Below are positions 3,580 through 51,353 of a stretch of 64,000 nucleotides of DNA, piece after piece. The DNA is taken from NCBI RefSeq assembly GCF_018332655.1, contig NZ_BOQL01000058.1, forward strand, positions 62,001 through 126,000, written 5' to 3'. The stretch's first letter is position 1, and each line of letters begins with the position of its first letter. The position numbers were made by a program, and so were the translations under genes. The stretch is from Actinoplanes auranticolor. GTDB taxonomy: Bacteria; Actinomycetota; Actinomycetes; Mycobacteriales; Micromonosporaceae. Below the pieces are notes generated by a model that was not told the DNA's origin, ran no database searches, and saw nothing but the letters and a program-made list of their open reading frames with translations.

Positions 3580-4716
<1,137 letters not shown>

Positions 4717-4843
4717 TCAGGGGAAGTCGCGCAGGAGTGTCAGACCCGGCGCCCGCGACCAGCGGGCTGGGTAAACATCATCGGGTGCACTCGGCGCATG
4801 GGACCCAGCATACCGCCAGGGACAACCGGGTATCGCCCACTGC

Positions 4844-49076: not shown

Positions 49077-49505
49077 TCAACGCCGGCCGGCGATGTGCCG
49101 CAGCGCCAGGCGGTAACCGTCGACGCCGAGGCCCGCGATGACCCCGGTGGCCACCGCCGAGACGACCGAGTGCTGCCGGAACTCCTCCCGGGCGTGGATG
49201 TTGCTGATGTGCACCTCGACCAGCGGGGCGCGCAGCATCGCGCAGGCGTCGCGGACCGCGTACGAGTAGTGCGACCACGCGGCCGGGTTGAGCACGACCG
49301 GGGCCTGCTCGTCGGCGGCGGCGTGCAGCCAGGCCAGCATCTCGTGCTCGGCGTCGGTCTGCCGGACCTCGACGTCGAGGCCGAGCGCCCGACCCTCCTC
49401 CTGGCACAGGGCGACCAGGTCGGCGTATGAGGTGGTGCCGTAGACGTCGACCTGGCGGGTGCCGAGCCGGCCCAGGTTCGGCCCGTTCAGGACGTAGGTC
49501 TTCAC
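49077..49505 (-). CDS. aroQ: 3-dehydroquinate dehydratase, type II
   Basis: AroQ dehydrates 3-dehydroquinate to 3-dehydroshikimate. The 142-residue type II enzyme has [18 protein letters not shown] (catalytic loop with the Tyr/Arg), [37 protein letters not shown], and [13 protein letters not shown] near the end. It overlaps the aroB stop (ATGA at 49502-49505). Folded as a dodecamer in known homologues. Confidence 0.95.
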
Positions 49506-50578
49506 GCCGACACCGCCCGGTAGGCCTCGGCCAGGGTCTGCTCGGAAGGCCCGGTGAGGATGCCCGGCCGGGCCAGACCGTCGAGCACGACGAAGCGCAG
49601 GGTGTCGGCCCGGGCCTTCTTGTCGACGCGCATGGCCGCGAGCAGATCGGGCCAGGCGGCCGGCGCGTAGCTGACCGGCAGGCCGAGCAGGGTCAGCACC
49701 TCGCGGTGCCGGGCCGCGGTGGCGTCGTCCAGGCGGCCGGACAGCCGGGACAGCTCGCCCGCGTAGATCAGGCCGACGGCGACCGCGTGGCCGTGCTTCC
49801 AGGCGTAGTGCTCGTTCTTCTCGATCGCGTGGGCCAGCGTGTGGCCGTAGTTGAGGATCTCCCGCAGGCCGGACTCGCGCAGGTCGTTGCCGACGACGTC
49901 GGCCTTGACCCGGATCGCCCGCTCGACCAGCTCGCGCAGCACGGCGCTGCGCGGGTCGGCGGCCGCGGCCGGGTCACCCTCGATGAGGTCGAGGATCACC
50001 GGGTCCGCGATGAAGCCGCACTTGGCCACCTCGGCCAGCCCGGCGACCAGGTCGTCGCCCGGGAGCGTGTCCAGCACGTCGAGGTCGCACAGCACCCCGG
50101 CGGGCGGATGGAACGCGCCGACCAGATTCTTGCCCGCGGTGGTGTTGACGCCGGTCTTGCCGCCGACAGCCGCGTCCACCATGCCCAGCAGGGAGGTGGA
50201 GACCGGCACCCAGCGCACGCCGCGCAGCCAGCTCGCCGCCACGAAGCCGGCGAGATCGGTCACGGCTCCCCCGCCGATGCCGAGGACCACGTCGGTGCGG
50301 GTGAAGCCGGCCGCACCGAGCTCGTCCCAGCAGCGCGCGGCCACGTCGATCGACTTGCCGGCCTCGGCGTCGGGGACCTCGATCGGCAGCGGCCGGATGC
50401 CCGCCGCCGACAGGGCGTCGGCGACCGCGGTCGCCCGCTCCTTGAGCGGAGGGGCGTAGAGCACGGCGGCCCGTACAGCGCCGTCGACCAGGCCGGGCAG
50501 GGCGTCGAGCAACCCCCGGCCGACGAGTACGTCGTAGGGCCGGTCACCGGGCACAGGGATTCGCGTCACGTCGTCCAT
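49502..50578 (-). CDS. aroB: 3-dehydroquinate synthase
   Basis: AroB closes the first ring of the shikimate pathway. From the ATG at 50578 ([11 protein letters not shown]) it has 358 residues. NAD- and metal-site motifs are [50 protein letters not shown], and the zinc ligands [11 protein letters not shown] and KHGHAVAVG. It has its own TAGGAT -10 element eight bases before the ATG, because the operon is interrupted upstream. An operator-like repeat overlaps the expected -35. Confidence 0.96.
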
Positions 50579-50586
50579 CGGCACCG

Positions 50587-50592
50587 ATCCTA
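50587..50592 (-). promoter_or_regulatory. Candidate leaderless -10 element of aroB (TAGGAT)
   Basis: On the minus strand TAGGAT ends eight bases before the aroB ATG. Its -35 position would fall inside the inverted repeat at 50604-50629. Confidence 0.45.
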
Positions 50593-50603
50593 GTGCGCCG
50601 AGC

Positions 50604-50639
50604 ATGGGGTTATAGACACGTAACCCCATTACGGGTTAC
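50604..50639. promoter_or_regulatory. Three-half-site operator between aroB and the RHH-ClpN gene
   Basis: A perfect nine-base inverted repeat (ATGGGGTTA at 50604-50612, TAACCCCAT at 50621-50629) overlaps a second perfect seven-base repeat (GTAACCC at 50620-50626, GGGTTAC at 50633-50639). The three GGTTA-type half-sites cover the gap between the two divergent starts. Ribbon-helix-helix proteins bind such repeated half-sites cooperatively, so the adjacent regulator is the obvious candidate. Confidence 0.75.
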
Positions 50640-50648
50640 ATATGGTCC

Positions 50649-51353
50649 ATGCCGAAAATCAACGTGTACCTGCCCGATGAGCTGGCCGAGGCCGTACGGG
50701 ACTCGGGGCTGCCCGTGTCCGCCATCTGTCAGCGGGCCCTCGAAGAGGCGGTCCGGCGGATCACCGTGATCCGCCGGACCGCCCTGGGCGACCTCGACGC
50801 CGACCAGCTCGCCGCGAGCCTGCCCTCGTTCACCCCGCGGGCCGTCACCGTCCTGTCCCTGGCGATCAATGCCGCCCGCGACGCCGGCGCGCCCAACGTC
50901 GGCACCGGCCATCTGCTGCGCGCCATGATCACCGAAGGGGAGAACCTGGCGTTGCGGGTGCTGCGCGCGATGGAGATCGAGCCCACGACGCTCACCTGGA
51001 CCGAGCAGGACGAGCCGGGCGGCGGGCCGGGGCTGCGCTACAGCACGCCGGCCGCGGTCGCGTTGGAGATGCTCGTCGCCGAGGCCGCCGCTCTCGGGCA
51101 CAACTACGTGGGCTGCGAGCACCTGCTCATCGGTCTCGCGGCCGAGCCCGACGGCGTCGCCGGGCGGGTGCTGCGCGAGGCGGGCGCCGACGGCAAGGCC
51201 GTGCGCCGGACGGTCTCCGCCGCCCTCAGCGGCTACGCCCACCTGCGGGCGACGAAGCCGCCGGTCGGACCGGAGGAGCTGAGCGCAGTGGTACGCGAGG
51301 AGCTGCGTCCCCTGGTTCAGCGGGTCGAGGCGCTCGAGGCGCGGCTGAGCTGA
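50649..51353 (+). CDS. Ribbon-helix-helix DNA-binding protein fused to Clp N-terminal domain
   Basis: Residues 1-40 (MPKINVYLPDELAEAVRDSG, then PVSAICQRALEEAV) have the strand-helix-helix pattern of CopG/RHH repressors. Residues about 61-110 and 131-195 are two Clp_N repeats (FTPRAVTVLSLAINAARDAGA, GTGHLLRAMITEGENLALRVL; ALEMLVAEAAALGHNYVGCEHLLIGLAAE), as in the N-domain of ClpC, and there is no AAA+ ATPase. The tail (209-234) may be a coiled coil. It starts 10 bases from a three-half-site operator and faces aroB. Similar stand-alone proteins occur in actinomycete genomes; I know of no defined function. Autorepression is likely. Confidence 0.85.
   Translation: MPKINVYLPDELAEAVRDSGLPVSAICQRALEEAVRRITVIRRTALGDLDADQLAASLPSFTPRAVTVLSLAINAARDAGAPNVGTGHLLRAMITEGENLALRVLRAMEIEPTTLTWTEQDEPGGGPGLRYSTPAAVALEMLVAEAAALGHNYVGCEHLLIGLAAEPDGVAGRVLREAGADGKAVRRTVSAALSGYAHLRATKPPVGPEELSAVVREELRPLVQRVEALEARLS

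Follow-up and report, generated by a model that had tools for sequence, protein, structure and literature searches.

The 64,000-nucleotide stretch of Actinoplanes auranticolor DNA analysed here (the window) carries a gene for a protein that joins a likely ribbon-helix-helix (RHH) head to two Clp_N stretches. Our computations established the domain make-up of this protein, an operator that recurs before the gene throughout its family, the fixed placement of that operator in aroB-type loci, and its near-uniqueness in the genome. We consider it reasonably likely that the protein is a self-regulated Clp_N decoy and sensor that works like mycobacterial ClpC2, with a different DNA-binding head.

In this proposal, the binding to DNA, the repression, the release by ligand, and the protective effect are inferred. 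RHH dimers would occupy the TAACCCC/GGGGTTA half-sites that lie over the gene's own promoter and thereby keep the gene off. If exposed hydrophobic stretches of protein, or a compound that targets ClpC1, filled the Clp_N groove, the protein would leave the DNA. The gene would then be induced, and the accumulated Clp_N domains would compete with ClpC1 for the ligand. Autorepression at the TAACCCC/GGGGTTA operator, for which comparative sequence argues, is highly probable. Release by ligands of the Clp_N groove has about an even chance of being correct, and we rate the decoy (sponge) role slightly below that.

The features on which the analysis draws are given below. Counts out of 81 refer to the window plus the best 80 of 208 relatives from one contig scan, and N-terminal conservation in this 80-locus set is partly selected because the scan patterns included the peptide MPKINVYL.

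50649-51353, plus strand: gene for the RHH-Clp_N protein, 234 amino acids, ATG start
50649-50786, plus strand: RHH-like segment, residues 1-46, putatively DNA-binding (weak CcdA/RHH_5 matches and predicted helices)
50820-51248, plus strand: double Clp_N domain, residues ~58-200 (Pfam, Foldseek)
51270-51347, plus strand: predicted C-terminal helix, residues 208-233 (R225 and E230 invariant in 81/81)
50604-50612, plus strand: operator half-site 1, ATGGGGTTA, exact inverted repeat with 50621-50629
50620-50629, plus strand: operator half-site 2, GTAACCCCAT, reverse orientation, with the TAACCCC arm conserved in the family
50633-50639, plus strand: operator half-site 3, GGGTTAC, exact inverted repeat with 50620-50626
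50613-50618, plus strand: putative -35 of the RHH-Clp_N gene, TAGACA, 17-nt spacing to TTACAT
50636-50641, plus strand: putative -10 of the RHH-Clp_N gene, TTACAT, overlapping half-site 3
49502-50578, minus strand: aroB, divergent, 3-dehydroquinate synthase (Pfam DHQ_synthase)
50587-50592, minus strand: putative -10 of aroB, TAGGAT, as read from the sequence

Pfam recognizes Clp_N as two stretches in the 234-amino-acid protein (E 4.1e-24), and the same scan found neither an AAA family nor AAA+ modules in it. The full-length model, computed with AlphaFold2 from 56 aligned sequences, has a mean pLDDT of 87.8. A preliminary description had proposed an RHH domain fused to two Clp_N repeats without an ATPase; the open reading frame, the Pfam match to Clp_N, and the absence of AAA domains agree with it, and the RHH head is probable. 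The C-terminal helix, with its invariant arginine and glutamate, is perhaps a second dimer contact.

The evidence for the RHH call consists of helix prediction and of Pfam scores that fall short of the threshold. CcdA is an RHH antitoxin family, and its profile matches residues 3-38 at 19.7 bits when the whole protein is searched and at 21.8 bits when residues 1-60 are searched alone, both below the curated cut-off of 22.4. At E<=1, all 31 N-termini supplied to the search match both CcdA and RHH_5 (best values 5.7e-6 and 1.7e-4, respectively), and a profile of these 31 N-termini has the VapB26 antitoxin as its top match in the PDB, with an E value of only 0.012. A model of residues 1-60 predicts helices at 10-19 and 23-46 preceded by extended residues 1-9, like an RHH monomer. 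With the RHH segment as the sole query, Foldseek and VIA-align returned no significant structural match. Residues 1-5 have pLDDT values below 50 in the full-length model. RHH strands arise only on dimerization, which weakens this low score as a counter-argument. An RHH fold is likely for the head, and the segment probably binds DNA.

Two cysteines, Cys27 in the RHH segment (50727-50729) and Cys156 in Clp_N, are each invariant in all 81 sequences (window plus best 80 of 208). Such conservation would suit a repressor that senses thiol or redox state, with Cys27 as the switch and Cys156 as an optional second part of it, and L172, L173, and L174, three divergent copies, still have Cys27. However, Cys156 is replaced by Gly or Ser in these three copies, which makes a conserved Cys27-Cys156 disulfide pair unlikely, and Cys27 could instead be structural. 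We regard a redox switch as improbable.

Three half-sites precede the gene: GGGGTTA, TAACCCC, and GGGTTAC. They form two overlapping repeats, ATGGGGTTA (50604-50612) with TAACCCCAT (50621-50629) and GTAACCC (50620-50626) with GGGTTAC (50633-50639). Both are exact, as first described, and 9 nt separate the end of the last repeat from the ATG. The pattern GTAACCC-n4-8-GGGTTAC occurs a single time in the 9,876,020-base genome, the reversed control pattern does not occur in it, and TAACCCC-n2-5-GGGTTA is likewise found once in these 9.88 Mb.

When at most one mismatch per arm is allowed, TAACCCC-n2-4-GGGGTTA lies no more than 110 nt upstream of 70 of the 81 genes (window plus best 80 of 208), although these loci are related and hence are not independent events. 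The corresponding counts are 0/81 far upstream and 0/81 downstream, and 100 mononucleotide shuffles gave a mean of 0.07/81 and a maximum of 1. At least one half-site with no more than one mismatch is present in 81/81. The single genome occurrence and the recurrence upstream of family members show that the inverted repeats are not due to chance. Conservation of the half-sites before homologues, which the preliminary description had proposed as a check, is thus evident from the difference between 70/81 and 0/81 in each control region, and the operator half of the earlier hypothesis is well supported.

The arrangement persists in more distant copies. In L173 (52% or 45% identity in two comparisons), AACCCCAATGGGGTTA is still present 10 nt upstream of the ATG, and in L172 (48% or 45%) the sequence is altered with the operator layout unchanged. 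The sequence TAACCCCNNNGGGGTTA is present in two of the 394 class genomes. In one of them (L121), it lies ~50 nt before an RHH-Clp_N gene; the other locus (L120) has no MPKINVYL start within its 3,017 bases.

The predicted promoter of the RHH-Clp_N gene is embedded in these repeats. The TAGACA-n17-TTACAT element stops 7 nt short of the ATG, so the transcript is likely leaderless or near-leaderless. Among loci without aroB, the 12 with a 4-nt gap share a >=50% consensus of TTGACT-n17-TATAnAT, and the operator spans its spacer and -10 element. Promoter support is weaker across all 55 non-aroB loci than in this subset: TANNNT stands at the expected -10 in only 25, and only 11 have a -35 that differs from TTGACA at no more than one position.

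The preliminary description had also suggested that the repressor ties the shikimate pathway, by way of aroB, to protein damage or to the phosphorylation of arginine. In the window, the RHH-Clp_N gene has aroB and a WYL regulator (Pfam) as its neighbours. Divergent aroB was found by tblastn in only 25 of the best 80 of 208 loci, and by record title these belong to Actinoplanes and relatives such as Paractinoplanes, Winogradskya, and Spirilliplanes. Half-site 1 is 41-43 nt from the start of the RHH-Clp_N gene in 25/25 of these loci, whereas its distance to the aroB start, estimated from tblastn, ranges from 27 to 86 nt; a repeat of the half-site scan covered the last 200 nt. The spacing of the half-sites thus tracks the RHH-Clp_N gene rather than aroB. 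The distance from the end of the last repeat to the ATG is 9-11 nt in 25/26 aroB-type regions and 2 to 56 nt in the 55 non-aroB loci, 16 of which have 10-11 nt. Furthermore, a Microbispora locus without an AroB match (L098) has the identical three-half-site layout.

The idea that the repeats cover the aroB -35 is geometrically possible, but the hexamer found 17 nt upstream of TAGGAT, CTATAA, which lies partly within the left arm, agrees with TTGACA at 2/6 positions only. Half-site 1 lies 27-30 nt from the estimated start of aroB in the window and in 11/25 aroB-type loci, so occupancy could hinder aroB there, perhaps incidentally. Upstream of 50578, the aroB frame stays open as far as an ATG within the operator (50578-50629, minus strand); 50578 is the likelier start. 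aroB is probably not the main target. We rejected co-regulation of aroB as the main function on the basis of context (25/80) and the spacing tied to the RHH-Clp_N gene.

The arginine phosphate half of the suggestion turns on the two glutamates of the phosphoarginine (pArg) sites in the ClpC N-terminal domain (NTD), E32 and E106 (PMC12583610). The second-repeat glutamate, E106 of the pArg1 site, corresponds to Glu157, which is invariant in 81/81 (window plus best 80 of 208), a point in favour of the reading. The first-repeat glutamate of the pArg2 site is Gly87 in the window protein, with G in 36/81 and E in 35/81 of the family, which leaves the reading weak. No match to the arginine-kinase family was found in the same genome, nor was one found in 14 control genomes. 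With Gly87 at the pArg2 site, a poor -35 match, and a variable aroB context, regulation of the shikimate pathway in response to damaged proteins or phosphorylated arginine is very improbable.

We also searched for the operator elsewhere in 71 of the 97 same-family genomes with matches to the whole protein. AACCCC-n3-5-GGGTTA occurs at 44 places in 37/71 genomes, and at 26 of these places a copy of the gene lies no more than 120 bp away. The strict pattern, which allows no mismatch in its arms, had no match in the other 34/71. The remaining 18 places, some of which are full palindromes, correspond to 19 strand rows, compared to 11 strand rows for the reversed control. Because this excess is small, we do not claim a wide regulon. 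The protein is not evidently a broad regulator judging from these counts, and single additional targets may exist.

The Clp_N part of the protein has ClpC1-NTD structures as its best Foldseek matches, including those with ecumicin, cyclomarin, rufomycin, or lassomycin, and ClpC2-CTD is also among them. The top match is ClpC1-NTD with ecumicin (E 2.5e-9). Groove residues were aligned to ClpC1 of the same genome and counted over the 81 sequences (window plus best 80 of 208). ClpC1 E89 corresponds to E140, which is present in 81/81, and ClpC1 K85 corresponds to A136, with A in 79/81. ClpC1 F80 is Y131 in the window protein (family F 69/81, Y 3/81), and a structure of ClpC1 F80Y with cyclomarin exists (3wde). 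ClpC1 F2 is L58 (family L 67/81, F 11/81). The ligand groove of ClpC1 is thus partly retained. Phe2, which is critical for cyclomarin, is Leu here and in 67/81, so the ligand may be something other than cyclomarin.

These features also bear on a different role for Clp_N, in which proteolysis by ClpC1P1P2 or another protease sets the level of an autorepressor and Clp_N does not sense a ligand but serves as an anti-adaptor or a degradation tag. A fold that matches ClpC1-NTD, the absence of an ATPase from the window protein, and a ClpC1-type N-domain (L003) encoded in the same genome would all fit this role. The ClpC2 precedent, however, works by ligand binding (PMC10030653), and we consider control by proteolysis unlikely.

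The family occurs in several actinomycete families. A search with the whole protein, which is free of the MPKINVYL restriction, matched 97 of 354 same-family genomes at E<=1e-20. By row count, the match begins at residue 1 or 3 in 95 of the 354; G094, with a MerR fusion, and G329, with a ClpC1-like fragment (L178), account for the remaining two. In the class sample, a profile of the N-terminus matched 28/394 genomes at E<=1e-5, and in 16 of these the match reaches E<=1e-19. Labelled members of the tree belong to Micromonosporaceae, Streptosporangiaceae, Pseudonocardiaceae, Thermomonosporaceae, and Streptomycetaceae, and the nearest named relative among those fetched is Amorphoplanes nipponensis (83%).

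In 17 of the 80 loci (best 80 of 208), none of which is of the aroB type, the RHH-Clp_N gene is followed by an asparaginase gene in the same orientation. One example, identified by Pfam, follows the RHH-Clp_N gene at 3858-4832 (plus strand) of L094. The asparaginase is a possible operon partner, and this neighbour is not accounted for by the Clp_N decoy model. It would be compatible with an antitoxin-like RHH protein that has a Clp_N tail, or with a metabolic regulator of a neighbour such as asparaginase, neither of which would sense Clp ligands. The 234-amino-acid protein does share its N-terminal RHH sequence pattern with the CcdA and RHH_5 antitoxins. Unlike them, it has a Clp_N C-terminus and no toxin neighbour was seen: in the window the adjacent genes are aroB and the WYL regulator, and no toxin family was recognized among the 10 neighbours scanned in seven relatives, of which 3/10 matched no family. 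Moreover, no asparaginase match was found within the fetched flanks of the other 63/80 loci, and the groove residue E140 is invariant. An antitoxin or metabolic regulator of this kind is scarcely probable.

One divergent copy of the gene (L183, 8361-9062, minus strand, on contig C2 of genome G018) sits amid genes for condensation-domain, MbtH-like, KASIII, and aminotransferase proteins and further genes typical of specialised metabolism. It retains the operator layout in an altered version, ATAGGGG...CCCCTAT. A nonribosomal peptide synthetase (NRPS) adjoining siderophore-type genes lies ~22 kb further on, and at the other end of the contig, no specialised-metabolism genes were found in 5/6 ORFs. 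Two other second copies showed no such biosynthetic genes in 7/13 and 5/15 ORFs scanned. Three NRPS, condensation, and KASIII query proteins gave no tblastn match in any of the 80 loci (flanks <=3 kb, shorter for L060 and L090). We therefore rejected a general association with biosynthetic clusters, and the copy in G018 is a single case that serves as a lead.

ClpC1 is an antituberculosis drug target. The ClpC2 sense-and-sponge circuit blunts the action of cyclomarin (PMC10030653), and a second ClpC2-like circuit would mean that Clp_N decoys have been used repeatedly to counter ClpC-directed peptides or unfolded protein. The RHH-Clp_N family and its operator are conserved across several actinomycete families, and its promoter would serve as a reporter for the discovery of ClpC ligands. 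A review mentions ClpC3 (PMC10864484). Within the open-licence PMC literature, we found no paper on the RHH plus Clp_N architecture, on MerR-Clp_N fusion regulators, on ClpC1 self-resistance in ecumicin-type clusters, on a ClpC2 operator in Actinoplanes, or on Streptomyces repressors with a Clp N-terminal domain. The preliminary description knew of no described function for this architecture, and our searches agree for RHH plus Clp_N itself, but it overlooked ClpC2 as a close functional precedent.

Mycobacterial ClpC2 (Rv2667; structures 8ADA and 8AD9) uses CGTCAAC-n5-GTTGACG palindromes to repress its own promoter, which is described as leaderless; cyclomarin releases ClpC2, which also serves as a sponge (PMC10030653). 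Desoxycyclomarin raised ClpC2, whereas an ecumicin analogue and ilamycin did not (PMC12913811). Like the window protein, ClpC2 is the product of a short actinomycete gene, lacks an ATPase, and carries an N-terminal head before a double Clp_N domain that resembles ClpC1-NTD. Palindromic operators over the gene's own promoter near the start codon are published for ClpC2 and are predicted from sequence for the window gene. The two differ in their heads (a four-helix bundle in ClpC2, RHH-like here) and in their operators (CGTCAAC-n5-GTTGACG and TAACCCC/GGGGTTA). In agreement with this, the N-domain of ClpC2 (8ada) is absent from the matches of the window protein at E<=1, and the ClpC2-type operator is absent upstream of its gene. 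Besides the change of the cyclomarin-contact Phe2 to Leu, the window protein lacks the arginines that are proposed to touch DNA: the positions of ClpC2 R185 and R189 (ClpC1 93 and 97 by the offset of the other named residues) are A144 and A148. The release mechanism of ClpC2 is thus not simply transferable.

The same genome has a true ClpC2 besides (L007, 1285-2103, minus strand, G000:C21), which matches 8ADA at E 1.5e-30 and has GTCAAC-n5-GTTGAC twice within 50 nt upstream of its ATG, as well as a Clp_N-only protein (L004). The window protein is therefore not ClpC2 but a second, differently built Clp_N regulator. Heads of the ClpC2 type are themselves reused: the RelI antitoxin has a DNA-binding head related to that of ClpC2, unlike the RHH head here, and is described without a Clp_N part in the available text of PMC13284704. 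Its structure (9sdc) matches ClpC2 of the same genome at E 4e-4.

The converse arrangement, a similar Clp_N on another head, occurs in MerR-Clp_N proteins of two same-family genomes (L176, 819-2195, minus strand; L177, 29-1318, plus strand). They also combine a DNA-binding head with Clp_N, and their Clp_N is 48% and 51% identical to that of the window protein over the matched stretch, whereas their head is MerR and a long stretch intervenes. A tree of 29 Clp_N domains, which includes 20 of the 81 RHH members, places the MerR-Clp_N group with the RHH family and away from ClpC1, ClpC2, and the Clp_N-only protein, with modest supports (81/86 and 92/85), an unsettled bootstrap, and several long branches. 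The presence of similar Clp_N domains on MerR heads in two relatives suggests that Clp_N is a reusable sensor, and such fusions favour our model because they are expected if Clp_N is the sensing part. We tentatively suggest that Clp_N is a portable sensor carried on at least three actinomycete heads (the ClpC2 four-helix bundle, RHH, and MerR) in decoys that sense peptides aimed at ClpC1 and soak them up. If so, the RHH-headed proteins, which have a TAACCCC operator of their own, would form a second, widespread branch, found in groups some of whose members produce these peptides, and the copy amid biosynthetic genes in G018 would be placed as a self-protection gene would be.
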